Below, piece by piece: positions 3,997 to 16,763 of a DNA stretch of 64,000 nucleotides; position 1 is the stretch's first letter, and the number at the start of each line of letters is the position of its first letter. This DNA comes from Haladaptatus pallidirubidus (GTDB lineage Archaea; Halobacteriota; Halobacteria; Halobacteriales; Haladaptataceae). The notes below the pieces were generated by a model. It was not told the origin of the DNA. It did not search any database and was given only the letters and a program-made list of their open reading frames with translations. Position numbers and translations under genes: made by a program. The stretch spans positions 248,001-312,000 of the forward strand of contig NZ_CP085307.1 of NCBI RefSeq assembly GCF_020700235.1. The letters run 5' to 3'.

Positions 3997-5595
3997 CTAC
4001 TTCGTGACTGCCTTCCCTGGCAGATCACCAGTTGCCTCATTGTCTCGTACCGCGAACTCACCATTAACGAGAACGTGATCAATACCTTTCGGATAGCGAG
4101 AGGGGTTTTCGAACGTCGCGCGACTTTCAACGACCTCGGGCCGGAGGACAACGAGGTCGGCATCCATGCCGCGTTTGATGATCCCTTTTTCGTCCAAACC
4201 CATCGCACGGGCCGGGAGCGAGGTCATTTTCCGGATTGCCTCTTCCAATGTCATAACGTTTTCTTCACGGACGTACTTACCGAGGATTCTGGGATAGGTG
4301 CCATAGACGCGGGGATGGGGCTTACCACCGAATAGGCCATCCGACCCGATGCAGACTCGTTCGTATCCGAGGATATCTTGCACGTCGTCCTCGTCGAGCA
4401 TGTGAAGCGTCATGCTCACGCCTAGATTCTCCTCAACCAGTAGTTCGGCAATGGCTGTTATCGCATCGGTGCCGCGGTCAGCTGCGATTTCGGTGACGCT
4501 CATCCCCTCGTATTGGTTGTTCTCTTCACTTGGTACGTTGGCGATGACCACGTTGTTCCATCCCGAGAGCGCGCCGATGTTCTCCCAACCGTCGATACGC
4601 CACTCTTCGATATCCTTTCGGATACGATCACAAGCGTCCTCATCCTGCAAGTATTCGAGGATCCCTTCAGGACCTTCGGCGTGAACCCACGGCGGTAACA
4701 CCGCCGAGAGCATAGTGCTCCCCGCGGTGTAGGGGTACTGCTCGGCAGTGAAATCCACTCCCCGCTCGCGGGCAGCCTCGATGATACCGAACGCCTGCTC
4801 CGTTTTTCCGTGCTGAACCGGCCCACCCATCTTGAAATGCGAGAGATGGAGCGGAACGTCTTCCTCGGCACCAATATCGATGAATTCATCGAGCGCCTCC
4901 CAAATCCACCGACCTTCACTTCGGATGTGTGCCACGAACGGGCGCTGGTATGGCGCGAGTTGGGATGCAAGCGTCTGGACTTCATGGGTGGAGGCGTACG
5001 TACAGGGCGTGTAAATGAGACCCGTAGAGAGGCCAATAGCGCCACTGTCGAGTGCGGTGGTCACCAAGTCGGCCATTTCGTTTAGTTCTGCTTCGGTAGG
5101 GGCGCGGTCAGACATCCCCAGCACGTTGTATCGTACTGTACCGTGACCCACCAACATTGCGACGTTCGGAGCGACGCCGTTCTCCTCAACCGCTTCAAGG
5201 TAGTCTGCAGTCGAACCCCATGTCCATTCCTTATCAGAGCGCCCAGCGAGCGCCCCGAGCTGTTTCTGCCATTCTTCGGCGCCACCGTCGCGGTGCATCG
5301 GTGCCATCGAAAAACCGTCCTGTCCCAGAATCTCAGTTGTCACACCTTGTCGGAGTTTGGGTGCGAGCGTGGGATCCTCGAACAGTTCGATATCGGAATG
5401 ACTGTGAGTGTCGATGAAACCGGGCGCAACCACCGCGTCCTCAAGATTTATAATCTCGTCGGCGTCGAGATTGTGATCAATTTCGCGGACTATGTGAGAA
5501 ATTTTATCGTCTGTAACGCCGACCGCACCACGAAACCATGGGGCACCGGTACCGTCCACTATTTTCGCTCTCTCTAAGAGAAGGTCAATAGTCAT
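3997..5595 (-). CDS. N-acyl-D-amino-acid deacylase (amidohydrolase superfamily), copy 2
   Basis: This protein has the same length (532 residues) and layout as the plus-strand gene at 2239, with the same HTHSHSD metal motif near residue 64, GQDGFSMAPMHRDGG, VAHIRSEG, LHLSHFK and GSDGLFGG catalytic segments. It should perform the same reaction, deacylation of N-acyl-D-amino acids in the cytoplasm. Blocks such as GTVRYNVLGMSDRAPTEAEL are identical in protein and nearly so in DNA, while others (residues about 310-375) have diverged strongly, so the pair may have different substrate ranges. The two genes end 159 bases apart, tail to tail. The start codon lies just before a short spacer and the carbamoylase relic. 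Confidence 0.87.
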   Translation of the reverse strand: MTIDLLLERAKIVDGTGAPWFRGAVGVTDDKISHIVREIDHNLDADEIINLEDAVVAPGFIDTHSHSDIELFEDPTLAPKLRQGVTTEILGQDGFSMAPMHRDGGAEEWQKQLGALAGRSDKEWTWGSTADYLEAVEENGVAPNVAMLVGHGTVRYNVLGMSDRAPTEAELNEMADLVTTALDSGAIGLSTGLIYTPCTYASTHEVQTLASQLAPYQRPFVAHIRSEGRWIWEALDEFIDIGAEEDVPLHLSHFKMGGPVQHGKTEQAFGIIEAARERGVDFTAEQYPYTAGSTMLSAVLPPWVHAEGPEGILEYLQDEDACDRIRKDIEEWRIDGWENIGALSGWNNVVIANVPSEENNQYEGMSVTEIAADRGTDAITAIAELLVEENLGVSMTLHMLDEDDVQDILGYERVCIGSDGLFGGKPHPRVYGTYPRILGKYVREENVMTLEEAIRKMTSLPARAMGLDEKGIIKRGMDADLVVLRPEVVESRATFENPSRYPKGIDHVLVNGEFAVRDNEATGDLPGKAVTK

Positions 5596-5675
5596 ACGCG
5601 GTATTTATTGAGAAGAACGAAAAACACGCCCCCAATAATGAGAGGGAGTTACAAACCGCGACTACCCACCGTAGC

Positions 5676-5918
5676 CTACTCGTCTGCCTTCTCTAGCACT
5701 GCATTGTAGAGGACGTTCACACCAGCACGATGTCCTTCCACTCAGTGTACTCTTCTTCAACGTGGCTGATACCATCGACGCTCGGGACGAATATCATACT
5801 CGTCGGACAAATTGTGTTCAGATAGTTCGCATCATGGCCAGCACCGCTAACGAGGCGTATATACTCATCTTCTCCAACAGTTACCTGTGCTGCCTGCTCA
5901 AACTTCGACCGACGAGAC
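5676..5918 (-). pseudogene. C-terminal remnant of an M20-type carbamoylase/allantoate amidohydrolase
   Basis: Reading the minus strand gives [18 protein letters not shown] followed by [19 protein letters not shown], the hallmark C-terminal region of Zn-dependent hydantoinase/carbamoylase amidases (N-carbamoyl-L-amino-acid hydrolase, allantoate deiminase). A one-base frameshift near 5735 separates it from the expected tail [15 protein letters not shown], which ends in TAG at 5676. Nothing of the N-terminal two thirds remains; the similarity stops where the HTH_10 gene begins at 5919. It is dead both by truncation and by frameshift. It supports the idea that this island once handled carbamoyl- or acyl-amino acids. 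Confidence 0.8.
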
Positions 5919-6644
5919 TTAAACCGAGCTTAGCAGCTTCACCTCAGCCTTCCGGAGATGTTCGAGAAGTGTAGTCTTCGAGATGTCGATTTCGGTGGCA
6001 AGCTCGCTTGCGGACGTTTCTCGTGGCCACGAGTAATACCCCCGCCGCTGTGCAAGTTCGAACACTTCGCGCTGGCGCTCGGAAAGTTCTACTACCGGGG
6101 AACCATTTTGAGTATGAGTGTCTGGTGACTTCATTCCCTCAATCGATATTTCAGCGTTCATCTCTGAACGTATCTCGTCGAGTCGACGGCTGATTTCTGC
6201 ACGATCTTGCGTAATGATTACCGTCCAATACTCCCTACCGTCGTGGACGCGAATTTCCTCTTCCGGGATAAATCCACGTTCTATGAACGCATCATGAATG
6301 CTGTTACAGCTCTCATACTTAACGAGGAGTTCTTCGGTGGTATTGCCCGCGGCGGCATTTCCCCGTGCACGCAGATTGAAATATTCCTGAACACATTGGA
6401 TCTCGGTTGTAAGCGGTGACGACTTAATCTCGTCTATCAAACTATTGATGTGCTTTCGAGAGTCGGCATACGCGGTACAGCGTGCGTTCGTCACGCCTCC
6501 AGTGTGATACACACCGTGTGCAATAAGACCCGCATCAGTTGCTGCCGTTGTTTGAAGAGTCCAGCAATTAGGATGCCAGATACGCAACGTCAACTGTGAC
6601 GAATGGAGGTCATTGTGTCTAGTATCTTTACTTGCATGTTCCAT
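5919..6644 (-). CDS. HTH_10 (bacterio-opsin activator type) transcription regulator
   Basis: A 241-residue protein whose C-terminal 55 residues are a textbook HTH_10 domain: [20 protein letters not shown], then [26 protein letters not shown]. The N-terminal 180 residues form the usual variable sensor-like part of haloarchaeal Bat-type regulators, here with many Cys and His residues near the start ([24 protein letters not shown]). This resembles the haloarchaeal family in which that region may bind a ligand or metal; that is inference. The first Met (MEHASKD) is a plausible start but upstream signals are weak. Its stop codon abuts the carbamoylase relic, so it probably arrived by a recombination that truncated that gene. 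Confidence 0.85.
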
Positions 6645-7391: not shown

Positions 7392-7429
7392 TGGTCGCTA
7401 AGAGCGACCATGGTAGCTAAGAGCGACCA
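7392..7429 (+). promoter_or_regulatory. Two abutting 19-base palindromic operators over the nucleotidyltransferase start
   Basis: Bases 7392-7410 read TGGTCGCTAAGAGCGACCA, a perfect inverted repeat with 8-base arms and a 3-base centre. Bases 7411-7429 repeat it with one change (TGGTAGCTAAGAGCGACCA). The ATG of the nucleotidyltransferase (7410-7412) straddles the junction. The encoded protein has an N-terminal winged helix, so autoregulation through these sites is the natural reading, but that is inference. Confidence 0.75.
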
Positions 7430-8090
7430 CTTGACTGGGACTGCAATCGAGCTTTCGCTCCCTGTCGCAAATGGGAGACTCTTCCGGCATGCTGCAACGA
7501 GTGATATCCTCGATCTCCTTGCCGCCAATCCACACACCGCATTCAGTGTTCGCGACCTCCGCCGCGTGACCGACCAGAGCGCAAGTAGTGTTACGGACGC
7601 TGTCGATCTCCTCGACGAGACAGATCTCATCACGATTACATACGATGGCAATCGGAAACTCGTTCAAATCAACCGAAAGCGACTCTCTCATCCTGATGAC
7701 CCATTGCTCCAAATTCCACAGACAGAGTTTCGTGATCCTGTGCGAACGATTGTTGATCGAATAACGCAGGAACTCGCCGATGTCAGAGGAATTGTTCTCT
7801 TCGGCAGTGTCGCTCGAGGCGAGGCTGATCGACGAAGCGACATCGACTGCTTCGTCCTCGTTGACGACGAACAAGCGCGTGCACAGCAGACGGCCCACGA
7901 GATTGCCTCGGAACTGAGCGAGCAACGATTTGACGGCGACCGGTTCAAATTCCAGGTACTCGTGGAGTCGACGGACACAGCACCCCGATATGGCGACCGC
8001 CTGCGCGATATCTTTGCGTCCAGTCTCACTCTCGTTGATTCCGAGGTGCTTCAGGCGCTCAAATCGGAGGTGCTCACGAATGGACGGTAG
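7410..8090 (+). CDS. Nucleotidyltransferase with N-terminal winged helix (MNT-type antitoxin)
   Basis: A 226-residue protein. Residues about 28-90 form a winged helix (SDILDLLAANPHTAFSVRDL and onward). Residues 125-210 are a minimal nucleotidyltransferase domain with the DNA polymerase-beta signature GSVARGEADRRSDID at 132-146 (G132, S133, D144, D146). In the known HEPN-MNT type VII toxin-antitoxin systems the MNT protein neutralises the HEPN RNase by AMPylation or similar modification. The next gene, overlapping by 11 bases at 8080, is a HEPN protein, which fits that pairing. Two tandem palindromes cover the start codon and point to self-regulation. All catalytic acidic residues needed for the fold signature are present, so this partner appears intact. 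Confidence 0.85.
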   Translation: MVAKSDHLTGTAIELSLPVANGRLFRHAATSDILDLLAANPHTAFSVRDLRRVTDQSASSVTDAVDLLDETDLITITYDGNRKLVQINRKRLSHPDDPLLQIPQTEFRDPVRTIVDRITQELADVRGIVLFGSVARGEADRRSDIDCFVLVDDEQARAQQTAHEIASELSEQRFDGDRFKFQVLVESTDTAPRYGDRLRDIFASSLTLVDSEVLQALKSEVLTNGR

Positions 8091-8577
8091 CTACGTCGAA
8101 GACGCCCTCGACACAGCAGAACAGGCCTTTCAGGATACGCGTGGACAATTGAGTGAAACGGATTTGGATGTGTCCGACGAAGCGCTCGTTCAGCTCCGGA
8201 AGGCCTGCCGGTTACTCGAAGCTGCGCGAACACTTCGTTCGCAAAACGGCTATTACACCGTTGTCATCGAAGCGTCCTTCGTCGCCATCGAACGGAGTAT
8301 CCAGTTCTATCTCCTCCATCGAGGACAAGCGGCAGGTGAAGATCTTTGACACGAGCATACCGCTGTGTACCAACGTGGCGCAGAAGTCAACCTCTTCAGC
8401 GATTCGTTTGCAGCACGCTTGATCCAGTTGTGGCAGCAAAATCGGGCAGAAGTCTACTATCGTGAAACGGTTGCCAGTGCAGAACAGGCTGATGCAATGC
8501 TCCACTTGGCAGAGGATCTCCACCAGTATCTCCGAGAATTTGCGTCGTTACAGCACGAATGCGTCTGTTCGACGTAG
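8080..8577 (+). pseudogene. HEPN-domain toxin gene interrupted by an in-frame TGA
   Basis: From the ATG at 8080 (overlapping the end of the nucleotidyltransferase gene) the frame encodes an all-helical HEPN-type protein: MDGSYVEDALDTAEQAFQDT, then LVQLRKACRLLEAARTL and YYTVVIEASFVAIERSIQFY. A TGA at codon 90 (8347-8349) stops it, yet the same frame continues without gap to 8577, with a helical, protein-like sequence and a C-terminal R152-x6-H159 motif (REFASLQH). Rx4-6H is the catalytic motif of HEPN RNases, so the truncated product would lack its active site. A single C-to-T change from CGA would explain the stop. Restart at a downstream codon (GTG at about 8362) is possible but would lack the N-terminal helices. 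It is probably a dead toxin. Confidence 0.75.
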
Positions 8578-9680: not shown

Positions 9681-9863
9681 GGACAAAGAAAAACAATTCA
9701 GTGGAGAACAGCCTACTGTTCGAATTAAAGCAAATACAGCCACGAGAACGACAGATGAGTGACCCGGCGCGTCGTTTTTGAAAAGCACCATCTTTTCGAT
9801 TCAGTAGACAACGGTCGAAATTATGAGTGTTGTTTCATTAGACATTGGGTTGAAGCAGTATCT

Positions 9864-10307
9864 ATGGACGAAACGGGGGTAGTATCTTACAAACACGTTT
9901 TGGTGCCGACGGATGGGAGCAAAGCGGCAAAACGCGCAACCGAACAAGCAGTAGAACTCGTAAAGGAGAGCAATGGAACAGTACACGCACTGTACGTGAT
10001 GGACATGGGGGACGCAGCTTTCGTCGCAGTCCCGAGCGACATCAAGGAAACACGGCAGCGACTAGAGAAAAAGGGACGCAAATTTGTAAACGAAGTAGAA
10101 GAAAAAGCCGAAGAAAGCGGAGTCGACTGTGTTGCCGTCATAAAATCCGGAATCCCGGAAGAAGAGATAGTTGAGTATGTCCATGAGCATGATGTCGATC
10201 TAGTAGTGATGGGAAGACGGGGACGGTCAGATCCTGACAAGCCACTCATTGGTTCGACGACGAAGCGTGTCCTTGGCCTATCTGACGTTCCAGTTCATGT
10301 GGTCTGA
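9864..10307 (+). CDS. Universal stress protein (UspA fold)
   Basis: A 147-residue single-domain universal stress protein, cytoplasmic. It starts VSYKHVLVPTDGSKAAKRA and ends with the ATP-binding signature GRRGRSDPDKPLIGST (G-x2-G-x9-G-S/T pattern), followed by VLGLSDVPVHVV, so it belongs to the nucleotide-binding type. I chose the ATG at 9864 (MDETG), because the longer frame from 9759 adds 35 residues that do not fit the family. It stands alone between the broken PIN-like gene and a nucleotidyltransferase fragment. A second, broken stress-protein gene lies at 17926. Confidence 0.88.
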   Translation: MDETGVVSYKHVLVPTDGSKAAKRATEQAVELVKESNGTVHALYVMDMGDAAFVAVPSDIKETRQRLEKKGRKFVNEVEEKAEESGVDCVAVIKSGIPEEEIVEYVHEHDVDLVVMGRRGRSDPDKPLIGSTTKRVLGLSDVPVHVV

Positions 10308-10346
10308 CATTCAGGATACTTCCAACTTGTGATTAACCTTGATTAG

Positions 10347-10481
10347 AAGTACGTGATCGAGGAGAGAGTTGACGATCTTCGGGATCTGGCGTACGATGTG
10401 CAACTCGACTACTCTGTAGTTGTATCCGTTCACGTCCAAACAACTGAACGATTCGCCGAGCGAAAGAATCATCCATTCATC
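10347..10481 (+). pseudogene. Fragment of a minimal nucleotidyltransferase
   Basis: The frame reads KYVIEERVDDLRDLAYDVQL, then DYSVVVSVHVQTTERFAE and NHPFI, which matches the C-terminal portion of haloarchaeal MNT nucleotidyltransferases (the part after the catalytic GSx..DxD site). The catalytic half is absent, a TAG precedes the fragment, and beyond 10481 the frame runs into unrelated sequence. It is a truncated relic, the third toxin-antitoxin-like trace within 3 kb. Confidence 0.6.
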
Positions 10482-11690
10482 ACCGTGACGTTATCCGCAT
10501 GGCCCATTCTCTTCCCGTTGGGTAGCGAGACTGCCCCTAACACGTGGTACTGTAGTTAGTATATTATTCTAACCACGAAAACAGACGTGAAGCAGCTACT
10601 GACGTTACACTGTTCCATGGATTCGTACAGAAGACGTGGAGAGTTAATTTGGCGTCACCATGAACGCGTCCCACGTCTATTAGTTACCTACAGTTGACAT
10701 CGAAGGCCGATAACTAACCTTCGACATTCTCCAATCGTCCTTGCTCTATTGTAAATATTGGGGCCAAATCTCGTGGTTATTACCATTACTATACAGGTTC
10801 GTTTACACAGTATACTAGAAGAGTACTGTATAAGGAAATAGACCATATACTGACGTTACACTGTATCTAATCTATGAAACAGAAGACATGGGGGGAAATT
10901 CATACCCGTGCATGTCACAGAACGTCGAAGTTACCGCCCTCCAAGGCAATTTTCTTCGACAATGTCTATAGCAACTGTCGCCGTTTAAAAATAACGGTTT
11001 CCACTGGTGTTACACTGTATATCGATTACAGGAGGGAGACGTGTGGAGTCTTGTGTTGAAGACTCCATTCGAGAGGAAACAGACGGTGCTGTTTCCATAA
11101 CTTGGGTGAGTCAGCCATCACATCGAACCACGTCTCATGACACCTCGTGACTGTCGAAGGTGATAACTACCTCCGACATTTTTCTATCGAATCTACACTT
11201 TATAAATATTGTGGCTAAATTTTTGTAATTATTGCCGCATCTACGTTTGTTCACACAGTATATGGAAAAAACACTGTATACTGACGTTATCCCATGTAAG
11301 AAAATAGACTATATACTGCTGTACCGACATAGCGCAATTCATTGGAACGGATGATGACGGAAGCAGCGTTTGGTTCCATCAGCAACGTCCCAATGGATAA
11401 GCCTGCGGTACACACCCAACTACAGATCCACATCCGTGATTCATCGAACGTAGGTGTTGGCGCACCTACAAACCACATCTACCTTTTTTATTGGTTTGAG
11501 ACGGCTACCTCGGACTCGGGCACCCATGCTCAACTAAGAATGGCCAGATCAACTTTGCTAATGAGTAAAGTAGTCCATCATAGTCGTTTTTCCACTTACT
11601 GTCCTACGTAGCACCAGATTCATCGGACACGTGGTGTACTCACATGACGACTGATCGTAAGCTACTCACGGTAGATACCTTTGCCTTTGC
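10482..11690. other. 1.2-kb gene-free stretch holding a duplicated noncoding block
   Basis: Apart from the repeats at 10598-11325 I see no gene here. Frames of up to 89 codons occur around 11342-11611 but have no recognised family, and base composition is A/T-rich and noncoding in feel. Confidence 0.5.
10598..11325. repeat. Duplicated noncoding block with recurring ACTGACGTTACACTGT motif
   Basis: The 16-base motif ACTGACGTTACACTGT occurs at 10598-10613 and 10849-10864, with a two-mismatch form at 11003-11018 and a partial form at 11280. Between these marks the two blocks (10598-10864 and 11003-11325) match in order: a TCGAAGG-TGATAACTA-CTTCGACATT-like segment, a TAAATATTG-GGC-AAAT segment, a GTTTACACAGTATA segment with an imperfect inverted copy (ACTGTATA), and TAAGGAAATAGACCATATACTG against TAAGAAAATAGACTATATACTG. 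The blocks are diverged direct repeats. They could be a mobile element pair without genes, an RNA-encoding repeat or a binding-site array. Confidence 0.7.
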
Positions 11691-12013
11691 TTAACCGAAC
11701 GACGACAAACTTGACTCAGTATACTGCCCTAACTCCTCCTCAATATCCGATTCACGCCATCTAAGCGGCGATACCCCCTCGCTGCCGCACGAACCACCAA
11801 CTCCCGATACAACCCAACATCGTACTCACTCAGTCCCTCACTTGCCAACATCACTCGCTCTCGCGAGTCTTTCGTATCGTCAACCATTACATATGACACA
11901 CTCTGGCCAAGGGTACGCCCCAATCTCAAATCAGCCGCTCGCTCCAGTGCTACCATACTCCGCGTCGATTTCGTATACTCCTCACAGGTCTTGAGACAGT
12001 GGGTGATAAAATG
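11691..12013 (-). pseudogene. C-terminal remnant of a family B DNA polymerase
   Basis: The minus strand reads KTCEEYTKSTRSMVALERAA, then LGQSVSYVMVDDTKDSRERV and SEGLSEYDVGLYRELVVRAA, which I recognise as the C-terminal palm/thumb end of haloarchaeal PolB-type polymerases. Near 11755 a frameshift moves the expected SPLRWRESDIEEELGQYTE into another frame, which ends SSLSSFG at the TAA 11691-11693. No polymerase or exonuclease catalytic region is present. Extra PolB genes in haloarchaea are often carried by plasmids and proviruses, so this relic probably marks a lost mobile element. Confidence 0.72.
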
Positions 12014-12058
12014 TAGTAATATTACATATTCGATGTTGTCAGTTCCTCAAGCTAAATT

Positions 12059-13690
12059 TCAATCCGCTGCAGTTATTGGGCCGAGCGGGCCACCGTAGAG
12101 GCCACCACCACCGCTGCCGTCGTAGACGCGAATCGCGAGCACGTTCTCGCCGCCGAAGTTAATGTTCTCCGGCTGAACCGTGTAGCGCCGGGTCTGCGAC
12201 CAAGCGGTCTCGTAACCGTTCTCCGGGAACGTTCCGGTTTGCCCAATTTTCGCCCCGTTGAGAAACGTCTCGTCCACGTCATCGATCTTTCCGACCGGGA
12301 TTTCAAGTGCGTGCCCTTTCCACTCCGCTGGCACGGTGAAGTGCTTACGGAACCACCCGTAAACCGGATTCTCGGTGTGATCAGAGTGGTCTTCCCAGTT
12401 AGCGGGTAACGTGACCGTTTCCCACTCACTGTCGTCGAGACCCGGGGCTTTCCACGACAAATTATCACTGCGATGGAACAACCACTTGCCAGCGAGCGAA
12501 ATCTGTGGCACCGTCAGCAAGCGCGGTGGGAGGTCGTCTACGGTCACCTCGAAGATTCCGGCGACCCCAATGTTCCGCTCGAAGGAGACGCGGGTTTTCG
12601 TTCCGGGTTGCAGCGAGACCGTCTCCGTTGCGACCACCTCGCCGTCGATTTTCAGCGGAACGTTGATTTCCGCCGGATCGCCGCTCGTGTTTCGAACGAC
12701 CGCGCTCACGTCGAGCTGCCCGGTGTCTACGTCAAAATCGACCGTAAGATCGCCAAACGTATCCACGCTTGCGAACGCGTACGGTAGATTGCGACGCGAG
12801 AGTTCCATCGGTGACTCCTCATCAGTTATCGGACGGAGACCAACCACGAACGAGAACGGGCCGTCTGGAACGACTCGGTACTCAGGGAGTGTCTGGATCG
12901 GCGTTCCGCCCACGCCAGTGACACTATGGTCGAGATTGAGCGTTACGGTGTCCCCGTCCTCAATTTGGTAATTAAACAGCGCCCGGTCGAGGTTTTCAGG
13001 AGATATATGGTGGGCGCTGACGTTCAGACTCGGATGCCCGAACGCGGCGAGGCCGCTGCTCCTACTTGTGAGGGTCGCCCACTGGACGTCCGTCTTGTTC
13101 CCGTAGTCCTGCGGGCGGACGTAGGGGATGTACTGTTCTTCAACCGTGCCGCTGTGGACGCCGACTTTCGTCCCGGTCTTCCGGTCGGGATACGTCTCCT
13201 GCGGCCCGCGCCCGTACCAGTTGAACTGCCGGAGTGAATCCTGAAGCCTGAGTTGAACGCCCATGCGACCGATCCAGCTCGAAATCGCCTGCTTTAGGGC
13301 GCCGTTCGGTGTCGCGCGGACTCCCAGCAGGATGTCGCCGGTTCCGAGCACGTGATAGAGGTAGTTAGTCGCGAACGACGCGTCCTTACCGGGAGCGGAG
13401 ACTGTTGTCTCGAATTGGATGCGCGTCACCTGGTCGGCGATCGACTCGACCGAGACCGACTCGACCGTGTGTTCGAGTTGATCGAGCCCAGCATCACGCC
13501 ACTCCTCGACCTCGGCTGACCCCCAGTCGACGTTCTCGTTCGAGATTGGCGTCCGCCAGACATTCAACCGGGGGCCGCTCGCGAGCAGTTCCTCCTCGTC
13601 GCATTTCATCGACGTGAGCCTCCCCTTCACCCTGTCGAACGTGTACTCGAATCCTGATCCACTGACCGTAATTGTGTCTGATGGGCTCAT
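12059..13690 (-). CDS. Beta-galactosidase small-chain domain with C-terminal jelly-roll domain
   Basis: A 543-residue protein. Residues about 5-290 match the Bgal_small_N domain (domain 5 of LacZ), with FEYTFDRVKGRLTSMKCDEE, the RLNVWRTPISNENVDWG loop, QFNWYGRGPQETYPDRKTGT and a C-terminal YRVVPDGPFSFVVGLRPI. Then comes a CARDB-like beta segment (about 305-395) and a GH2-type sugar-binding jelly roll (about 400-543; SLAGKWLFHRSDN, YGWFRKHFTVPAEW). It has no catalytic glutamates of its own, and no signal peptide. It follows the large chain by 46 bases on the same strand, so the two should act together as a heteromeric enzyme, as LacL/LacM do in lactobacilli. How it leaves the cell is unclear, since only the large chain has a Tat signal. 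Confidence 0.8.
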   Translation of the reverse strand: MSPSDTITVSGSGFEYTFDRVKGRLTSMKCDEEELLASGPRLNVWRTPISNENVDWGSAEVEEWRDAGLDQLEHTVESVSVESIADQVTRIQFETTVSAPGKDASFATNYLYHVLGTGDILLGVRATPNGALKQAISSWIGRMGVQLRLQDSLRQFNWYGRGPQETYPDRKTGTKVGVHSGTVEEQYIPYVRPQDYGNKTDVQWATLTSRSSGLAAFGHPSLNVSAHHISPENLDRALFNYQIEDGDTVTLNLDHSVTGVGGTPIQTLPEYRVVPDGPFSFVVGLRPITDEESPMELSRRNLPYAFASVDTFGDLTVDFDVDTGQLDVSAVVRNTSGDPAEINVPLKIDGEVVATETVSLQPGTKTRVSFERNIGVAGIFEVTVDDLPPRLLTVPQISLAGKWLFHRSDNLSWKAPGLDDSEWETVTLPANWEDHSDHTENPVYGWFRKHFTVPAEWKGHALEIPVGKIDDVDETFLNGAKIGQTGTFPENGYETAWSQTRRYTVQPENINFGGENVLAIRVYDGSGGGGLYGGPLGPITAAD

Positions 13691-13736
13691 GGCTTCCTCC
13701 GTGTGCTGTATGTGTCGTTCATCGTCAGATGTGATG

Positions 13737-16700
13737 TCATTCGTTCACCGAGATAGTCGACATTTCTGAGACTAGTTCAAGTGTGGGAGTTGGGACGTCG
13801 AACGGCACTTCGAACTGCTCGAAGGCAACCTCATGGCCCACATCGGCATACCATGTATCCTCGGCGAGGTGGAAACTGACGACCAGCCAGTAGTCCGCGC
13901 CGGGTTCGAATTCTGGTTGGTCGAAGGGGATTTCGACCGTGGTCGTGTCGTTTGGTTCGAGTGCGACATCAAGTGCCCCCTGCTGGAGGACGTCACCACC
14001 TTCGCACAGCTCCCAGTGCACGTCGAGTGCAGAGAGATCCGTGAAGTTGTAGTGATTCGTGACCTCCACGAGGCCTGCGGTAAGGTTGGCCCCGCGCAAC
14101 CGAATTGGCTGATGAGCTTTCTTTAACTGCCAGAGTTCGGGTTGGGGCACACGGTCTGCGTCGACAAGACCATTACAACAGAATGGATCGACGCCGTACG
14201 AACGGAATGTTCCGTCGGTTTCGAACACCTCGAAGTCGAGCCAGAGCACGGTACTCTCATCAGGTCTAGAACGATTTAATCGGAGTTCATCGGCCACAAA
14301 GCCACGGTCGTGGATGGCTGCCCGTCGATATCGGGCATTCGAGAGCCAGCCGTCCCAGTTTGCCCGGTGTTTGTCTGCATTCCGGCCGACGTTGACCGGC
14401 TGTGGGTTATGATTGATGCTGCCGTCGTGTGGGGTGGATGCTAACTGCTTCCCGTCCACGTAGAGCTGTAATTCGCTCCCGGTGTGGACGCCGACGACGT
14501 GATGCCAGTTCCCGTACCAATCATCGGGGACAGTCGATTCGACGGTAACCCATTCCTCTTCGGGGTCGTAAATGAAGAACTGGAGTGTCGACTCGTCGCT
14601 CATTTTCAACCCGTACTGGTGATCACCCTTCGTAAGGAAAGCGTCCGAGCCAGTCCACGGCTGCCGGGGCTGAACCTCAACCTCGAGCGTTAGCCCGGGT
14701 TCGGTGATGTCAAGGCTCGGGTCGCGGTAGAATTCAATCCAGTCGTCGAGTCCTGAAAGCTCGATTGCGGGGTCTCCCGCATCCGTGTTGACAACCGTAG
14801 GTTCACCGTGGAAAACACCGTCGTTGCCGTATTCAGTGGCATCGGGTGTGATAGTGTAGTCCTCGTCAAGTCGCTGGTTCACCCAGTCCCAGATAAAACC
14901 GCCCTGCAACTGGTCGTGTTCTTCAATGACCTCCCAGAACCGCTCAACGAGACCGAGGCTGTTGCCCATCGCGTGGTTGTACTCGCCCATGACAGCCGGG
15001 CGTTGCTCATCTTCATCCTCGGCAATGTCGACGAGGTCGGACGGGCTGACATACCGTGGTCCGATGACGTCTGCGTAGGGAGCAACGCCGCCGTTGTTCG
15101 CCTGATGGTATAAGAACCTCGTCGGATCGACGCCCGCACCCGCATCGCCGTCGCCGTCCACATCGCCACCCTCGATGTATTCGGCCATGTGAAAGTGTGC
15201 TGGGCCGAGACCGGCTTCATTCCCCGTACTCCACATGAAAATGCTGGCCTGGTTCTTCCACTGCTGAACCATTCGCCTGAAGCGATTCATAAATTGAGTG
15301 TGGAACGCCGGATACTCATTGACGAGGTCAGGGTTCTGATGGGTCTCGGCGTTGACTTCGTCGCACACGTAGAAGCCAAATTCGTCCGCGAACTCGTAGA
15401 ACTCGGGGCCGCGCGGATAATGCGAGTTCCGAAGTGCGTTGACGTTGAATTGCTTCAGACGCTCGAACTCCTCGCGTCGCAGGTTTTCGGCCATGGTGCG
15501 GCCGAATTTGGGATGGTGTTCGTGGAGATTGACGCCCTTGAAGTTGACCGGTTCACCGTTAACGTGGATCTGACCGTCAATAATCTCGTATTTGCGAAAC
15601 CCGAATTTTGCGAGCTGGGCTTCGGTGGCCGACTGCGATCCAGACTGGCGAAGTTCGAACCCGACGCGATACAAATTCGGATATTCTGCAGACCATTTCG
15701 CCGGCGAGGCGACGTCGATCGAGAAGGAGACGCCAGCGCTATCGTCCGCCGGCACGTCGACGGTTTTCGACGCCGTCTTCACGGGCTGATAGTCGGGGTC
15801 AAAGAGGTAGGTTTGAAGCTCGTACGTGTCCGCGCTGTCGCCGTAATTCGCGATTTCGGCGTCCACGTGGAGCGCCCCGTTCTTGTAGTTGCTGTCGAGA
15901 CTGGGTTGGAGGAAGTAATCGCGGAGGTGAGCGTTCGGCGTTGAGTAAAGTGAGACGTCGCGAAAGATTCCCGCAAAATGCCACATATCCTGGTTCTCCA
16001 AGTAGCTTCCGTCGGACCATCGAAAGACCTGTACGCCGATTTCGTTCGCGCCGGGCTGGAGATTGTCAGTTACGTCGAACTCCGCAGCCGTCATCGATCC
16101 TTTGTCGAAGCCGACATATTCGCCGTTAATCCACACGAAGTACGCGGATTTCACGCCGTCGAAGCGGAGGAACGTCCGGCGGCCTTCCGTCCAGCTATTT
16201 GGCACCGTGAACGTCCGTTGGTACGTTCCGACAGGGTTGATGTCGTTGGGGACGTTCGGCGGGTCGTACGGGTAGAGGTCGAGAGTGATGTTGCGGTACA
16301 TCGCGTGGCCGAAGCCATCAGCCTGCCAGACTCGGGGAACCGTGACGGTGTCCCACAAATCCGTTCCGTCGAATTCGCTGGGCGCGTTCGCTGGATTAAG
16401 CGCCCAGTGGAAGTTCCAGTCACCGTTCAGTGACTCGAAATGCGGGGATTGTCGCCACCGTTGGAGCGGTGATTTGTTCACTCGGTCTTGGTTGAGCGCC
16501 GATTTAACCGAGGGATACGGAATCGTGGGGACATGCCCAGGTTCCTGGTTCTCTTCAACCAACTCGGGGTTCTCAATGTACTTGTCAAGGGGAACGTCGC
16601 CGGGCGTCATAGATTGGATCACCGAAGTCGTTGCTGATGCCGTCCTCTGGTCGCTCAGTCCGGGGAGGAGTGCAATACTACCGGTCGCCAGGAACGTCCG

Positions 16701-16763
16701 ACGCAACACGTTGAGCGTCGAGCGTCTTGTGGAATCGTCAGTGGTCGGATTAGTTTCACTCAT
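13737..16763 (-). CDS. GH2 beta-galactosidase large chain, Tat-exported, with inserted LamG domain
   Basis: A 1008-residue GH2 enzyme. A twin-arginine signal (LRRTFLATGSIALLPGL) sits at residues 20-36. The sugar-binding domain (about 110-275), immunoglobulin-like domain (about 280-395) and TIM barrel follow. The acid/base is E516 in WSTGNEAGLG and the nucleophile E594 in VMGEYNHAMGNS. Between WDWVNQ (625-630) and CCNGLVDADR (about 862) lies a concanavalin-like LamG insert (about 660-846) with WHHVVGVHTGSELQLYVDG. Domain 4 ends the chain; domain 5 is encoded by the next gene (13690-12059). It should hydrolyse beta-galactosides outside the cell. The upstream leader holds an A/T-rich box (TTATAAATA on the minus strand near 16855). 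Substrate may be a polysaccharide rather than lactose. Confidence 0.88.
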   Translation of the reverse strand: MSETNPTTDDSTRRSTLNVLRRTFLATGSIALLPGLSDQRTASATTSVIQSMTPGDVPLDKYIENPELVEENQEPGHVPTIPYPSVKSALNQDRVNKSPLQRWRQSPHFESLNGDWNFHWALNPANAPSEFDGTDLWDTVTVPRVWQADGFGHAMYRNITLDLYPYDPPNVPNDINPVGTYQRTFTVPNSWTEGRRTFLRFDGVKSAYFVWINGEYVGFDKGSMTAAEFDVTDNLQPGANEIGVQVFRWSDGSYLENQDMWHFAGIFRDVSLYSTPNAHLRDYFLQPSLDSNYKNGALHVDAEIANYGDSADTYELQTYLFDPDYQPVKTASKTVDVPADDSAGVSFSIDVASPAKWSAEYPNLYRVGFELRQSGSQSATEAQLAKFGFRKYEIIDGQIHVNGEPVNFKGVNLHEHHPKFGRTMAENLRREEFERLKQFNVNALRNSHYPRGPEFYEFADEFGFYVCDEVNAETHQNPDLVNEYPAFHTQFMNRFRRMVQQWKNQASIFMWSTGNEAGLGPAHFHMAEYIEGGDVDGDGDAGAGVDPTRFLYHQANNGGVAPYADVIGPRYVSPSDLVDIAEDEDEQRPAVMGEYNHAMGNSLGLVERFWEVIEEHDQLQGGFIWDWVNQRLDEDYTITPDATEYGNDGVFHGEPTVVNTDAGDPAIELSGLDDWIEFYRDPSLDITEPGLTLEVEVQPRQPWTGSDAFLTKGDHQYGLKMSDESTLQFFIYDPEEEWVTVESTVPDDWYGNWHHVVGVHTGSELQLYVDGKQLASTPHDGSINHNPQPVNVGRNADKHRANWDGWLSNARYRRAAIHDRGFVADELRLNRSRPDESTVLWLDFEVFETDGTFRSYGVDPFCCNGLVDADRVPQPELWQLKKAHQPIRLRGANLTAGLVEVTNHYNFTDLSALDVHWELCEGGDVLQQGALDVALEPNDTTTVEIPFDQPEFEPGADYWLVVSFHLAEDTWYADVGHEVAFEQFEVPFDVPTPTLELVSEMSTISVNE

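Follow-up and report, generated by a model that had tools for sequence, protein, structure and literature searches.

The Repeat Block and Its Neighbors

The window (the whole stretch of 64,000 nucleotides that was analyzed) lies on contig NZ_CP085307.1 of Haladaptatus pallidirubidus, whose genome comprises 6.27 Mb, and it contains an AT-rich block of three tandem units, A, B, and C, arranged head to tail on the + strand. Unit A occupies positions 10598–10848, the shortened unit B positions 10849–11002, and unit C, which has an insertion within its first hairpin, positions 11003 to about 11310. Each is headed by the 16-mer ACTGACGTTACACTGT, which is exact in A (10598–10613, +) and in B (10849–10864, +) and has two mismatches in C (11003–11018, +). 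An earlier note on this DNA had described two direct repeats of about 270–320 bases. The similarity of A and C is indeed far above that of shuffled sequences (local alignment score 105; shuffled mean 23, maximum 38), but there are three units, of 251, 154, and about 308 nt. Unit B aligns with A at a score of 56 (shuffle maximum 33), and with C, when these two are aligned alone, at a score of 31 that is not above chance (shuffle maximum 36). Many small indels separate the copies. The recurring 16-mer that the note had placed at the repeat edges is thus real, with two exact sites and a third with two mismatches, as are its inner dyads, which lie at unit junctions (ACAGTA/TACTGT at 10807–10829 and CAGTATA/TATACTG at 11256–11283). 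The proposed extent of 10598–11325 falls inside the homologous block, but comparison with a related stretch of contig C1 extends the block from about 10560 to 11427. The note was also right that there is no gene here: between 10560 and 11420 the longest stop-free frame is 62 codons, and the ORF at 11342–11611 has no Pfam match.

The adjacent gene that had been taken for the relic of a DNA polymerase is not that of a replicative enzyme. It encodes (7410–8090, +) an HTH plus NTP_transf_2/Polbeta minimal nucleotidyltransferase of the Pol-beta superfamily, as identified by Pfam. The short ORF that follows it (7930–8349, +) has no Pfam match and resembles by eye a truncated HEPN partner, so that the segment 7410–8349 is perhaps a broken MNT/HEPN pair. 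On the other side of the block (12059–16763, −), an ORF with a beta-galactosidase small-chain domain (12059–13690) adjoins an ORF of 1008 amino acids (13737–16763); this pair may represent a single glycoside hydrolase divided between two ORFs. Two of the loci that bear units have a gene for a universal stress protein (Usp) as a neighbor, at 9759–10307 (+) in the window and at 5087–6019 (+) in locus L022, which is possibly a coincidence.

The repeated 16-mer and the dyads, embedded in AT-rich DNA, could suggest an array of DNA-binding sites, be it an operator, a partition site, or a replication origin, and there is one ORB-like 11-mer, CCAGTGGAAAC, at 10997–11007. We consider this reading very improbable. 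One ORB-like match was observed where 1.0 is expected by chance, no replication or partition gene was found among the 25 window ORFs scanned, and the GC-skew profile, which the earlier note had proposed as a check for an origin, has no clear signal at the block. An origin was specifically rejected, with its single chance-level box and no Pfam match to Orc/Cdc6 in the same 25 ORFs. An 18-base version of the 16-mer, allowing up to three mismatches, occurs in the whole genome only at the three sites of the block, and the copies on contigs C1, C2, and C3 lack the motif; hence, the 16-mer is not the conserved part of the family. The functional array that the note had offered as one possibility therefore fares unevenly: its RNA option is the better supported, by the compensatory changes in the first hairpin and by the position of a copy in Haladaptatus litoreus, but its origin option has no support.

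Related Units Elsewhere in the Host Genome

The search for dispersed copies that the earlier note had suggested returned four other loci in the host and one copy in H. litoreus. Within the host, C1 and C3 carry two units each, and C2 carries units at two places. In a DNA search of the host genome, the matches were confined to C3 and C1 and were all units, with 72–81% identity between the copies matched as DNA. The two places on C2 were added, with 70 and 39 bits, by the covariance model R1, which was built from six copies whose training sequences excluded the letters of the bulge and the insertion of unit C. This same model matches unit A at 10631–10784 with 142.6 bits and unit C at 11097–11236 with 106 bits, both units having been part of its training set. 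One of the C2 copies, C2b, is degenerate; C3:59922, a weak candidate with E = 0.5, is possibly another unit in decay.

The stretch 3173801–3173434 of C1 contains one unit flanked on the left and on the right as is the block in the window, and with its flanks it is homologous to the whole of 10560–11427 (+; left flank score 47, right flank score 61, shuffle maximum 29 each). Because C1 has these same outer flanks around a single unit, the array in the window is best read from the sequences as a duplicated locus that would have been expanded in tandem (or else C1 would represent a contraction), and not as the result of two insertions. On C3 the outer flanks common to the window and C1 are missing, so the homology breakpoints differ by locus. 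Between the two C3 units, a sequence, GGAATCCTTGCCCTTTAGGGCGGGTGAGAATGTCAA (L006 6376–6411), breaks up the tandem pair; it looks like the right-hand terminus of IS605/IS1341 elements from haloarchaea.

The note's idea of a mobile element inserted twice is thereby weakened, since, in addition to the shared flanks, neither inverted terminal repeats nor target duplications were identified and the edge motif is found nowhere else in the genome. A broader form of the idea nonetheless constitutes the main rival to the RNA reading that we prefer. On this view the units would be what is left of an old mobile repeat, now in decay and without a transposase, akin to the MITEs, PATEs, or SMRs of Haloquadratum, and their hairpins would once have been palindromes that a transposase recognized as DNA. 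Such elements are plentiful in haloarchaea (PMC3119063), and the copies, whose spread over four contigs makes past mobility conceivable, are AT-rich, gene-free, palindrome-rich, and patchily distributed between species, with the CAGTATA/TATACTG dyad at unit junctions. Against it are the variable breakpoints, the head-to-tail tandem arrangement, which is unusual for such elements, and the presence of one copy at the same position in another species. On balance we judge it somewhat unlikely.

The known elements offer a closer comparison. MITEs and SMRs of haloarchaea have, by definition, inverted terminal repeats (PMC3119063); the units are likewise short dispersed noncoding repeats, but no inverted terminal repeats were found at constant ends, and the sole inverted pair of at least 12 nt in 10000–12000 is internal. 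PATEs are palindrome-associated transposable elements with near-terminal palindromes related to IS605-type transposons (PMC3119063). The units resemble them in being short, gene-free, and palindromic and in lacking inverted terminal repeats and target duplications, but their hairpins lie inside tandem units. There was no IS605-type element among the genome matches of the unit, whether by DNA or by model, and no autonomous transposon with the same ends, the genome DNA search having returned only units.

Conserved Hairpins and Tests of Structure

A full unit consists, in order, of a hairpin H1 whose loop starts with GAGUYAG (GAGTYAG as DNA), a second hairpin H2, and downstream the motif TAAATATTG; these three elements are what the block has in common with the rest of the family. 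The consensus arms of H1 are AGACGTGG/CCACGTCT and those of H2 are TGTCGAAGG/CCTTCGACA, with a three-base bulge in some copies. Seven of the nine bases of TAAATATTG are invariant over eight aligned copies. In unit A (all features that follow are on the + strand), H1 pairs AGACGTGG (10632–10639) with CCACGTCT (10671–10678), as indicated by the sequence and by covariation across copies; H2 pairs TCGAAGG (10700–10706) with CCTTCGA (10718–10724), as indicated by the sequence and model R1; and TAAATATTG lies at 10752–10760. Unit B has H1 at 10885–10916 (GACATG/CATGTC), with a compensatory G-C to A-U change relative to the consensus, and, by folding, H2 at 10924–10960 (GTCGAAG/CTTCGAC) and a third hairpin, H3, at 10981–10997 (CCGTT/AACGG). 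H3 is clear in this unit and in the H. litoreus copy and is predicted in some others; it has no form common to the copies, and its conservation is not clear.

Unit C is the most elaborate. Its predicted H1 stem, GAGACGTG (11036–11043) with CACGTCTC (11129–11136), closes a multibranched domain, within which about 60 extra bases form two perfect 8-bp hairpins, GGAGTCTT/AAGACTCC (11045–11066) and GGAAACAG/CTGTTTCC (11075–11096). In the alignment this insertion is not present in the other copies, and the H1 stem stays closed around it. H2 of the unit (11152–11178) pairs TGTCGAAGG with CCTCCGACA in the fold, with one A-C mismatch, and TAAATATTG follows at 11203–11211.

When the H1 arms of ten copies were aligned by hand, five of the nine pairs exhibited compensatory change, which 0.04% of shuffles equalled. 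Of the 90 cells, 81 were paired (shuffled mean 74.7, maximum 80). H2, in the same kind of alignment, has no compensatory change. The model-fitted alignment has both-side changes in nine pairs versus 2.0 in shuffles, although this alignment favors the structure and includes a reverse-strand match and a misplaced H1 arm of unit C. When the eight closest copies are aligned with MAFFT, covariation does not exceed that of shuffles, because these copies vary little among themselves. Judged from the aligned sequences, H1 is preserved through compensatory changes across the copies.

The folding energies are more heterogeneous. Fold z is −3.1 to −4.6 for unit C, copy C1a, and the H. litoreus copy (−3.7 for 11003–11290 of unit C) and −2.5 to −3.4 for unit B (−3.4 over 10849–11002). 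Several copies fold no better than shuffles (z near 0 for C2a, C2b, and C3b), and the mean over copies is −1.7 on the + strand and −1.2 on the − strand. G-U counts are divided as to strand, H1 favoring + and H2 favoring −, and no terminator-like site was found when one was looked for.

Models built from the units find further copies; a covariance search for structured RNA had been proposed in the earlier note. Against Rfam 15, positions 9700–12100 of the window yield nothing at E values of up to 1, and six loci yield nothing at gathering scores. Scans for tRNA and tmRNA were also negative, readings as an H/ACA guide or a kink-turn were dropped by eye for want of a conserved motif, and a limited literature search returned no description of these repeats.

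Distribution beyond the Host

A family-level search with R1 revealed one copy in H. litoreus CGMCC 1.7737 (E = 5.5e-4), a genome whose copy had played no part in building that model; with R2, a model made from eight copies including this one, it scores 78 bits. The copy lies between purL, a neighbor named by eye from its sequence, and a small gene (MSLHHHP...), and the C1 pair of the host occupies the same position. Units were found in two of the nine Haladaptatus genomes. Genome G002, the nearest sister as judged by the small neighboring protein, has the purL site without a unit, and so, according to the model, does G001. In G002 (L026 1–1100), purL is cut near its start, close to the site of the C1 copies in the host, by an unrelated sequence that by eye is perhaps an integrase gene.

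Samples of 392 genomes from the class and 392 from the order, which overlap and were both scored with stricter filters, contained no further carrier genome. Plasmids had no blastn match to the block or to C1a, and phages had none to the block. Pattern scans of viral contigs were negative except for a single 16-mer match, in contig L069, which had no model match and was judged to be chance. The H1 pattern was matched four times in Halorubrum, at 18–19 bits, in G+C-rich sequence and with no H2, and these matches too were judged to be chance.

The absence of units from sister species, the high divergence implied by 72–81% identity, and the degenerate copies (C2b and perhaps C3:59922) are what one would expect of duplicated intergenic DNA without present function, once functional or always neutral, that drifts after local and inter-contig duplications. 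We regard this explanation as improbable, as conservation is concentrated in the stems and in fixed short motifs, and H1 has undergone compensatory change.

A Candidate Structured RNA Family

There is, in our estimation, about an even chance that the block is a tandem array in which a gene for a structured noncoding RNA occurs three times, and that this gene is part of a small Haladaptatus family. Slightly short of even is the fuller proposition that this is a new, genus-restricted family of multi-hairpin noncoding RNAs, which multiplies by tandem duplication and spread between contigs and accepts the insertion of hairpins into its stems. The RNA reading is supported by the H1 compensatory changes together with the H. 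litoreus copy at the position of the C1 pair; by the lack of an ORF, the many small indels, the further copies in the host genome, and the fold z of B, C, C1a, and the H. litoreus copy; and by the nature of the unit C insertion, itself two perfect hairpins within a stem that still closes. It is weakened by the restriction of the units to so few genomes of the genus, with no unit at the purL site of G002; by the copies that fold much as shuffles do, the MAFFT result, and the lack of compensation in H2; and by the divided strand signal, the want of a terminator-like site, and the poorly conserved H3.

If the RNA reading is correct, transcription of each unit would start at a putative promoter near the unit junction, with + as the likelier strand. 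The transcript, of about 120–210 nt, would fold into H1, with its GAGUYAG loop start, then H2, and then a 3′ segment that contains UAAAUAUUG, and might act through its conserved segments as a trans-acting intergenic sRNA or as a protein-binding RNA. A chromosomal locus adjacent to purL would have been duplicated to another contig and there expanded in tandem. The nearest functional likeness, by analogy, may be an intergenic sRNA such as sRNA154 of Methanosarcina mazei, which is conserved within its own genus (PMC5867862); sRNA132 of Haloferax volcanii is another archaeal intergenic sRNA (PMC6560208). The units are similarly intergenic and ORF-free with predicted hairpins, but they are RNA genes predicted from sequence and, unlike these two, occur in several tandem and dispersed copies.

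Should the units instead be a mobile repeat, this repeat would lack the termini by which the haloarchaeal kinds reported from Haloquadratum are defined. If they are transcribed, the structured RNA families of the haloarchaea would grow by one, and the units would provide a case of RNA genes multiplying in tandem within one lineage, in which birth, drift, and the tolerance of inserted hairpins could be read from the copies of a single genome.
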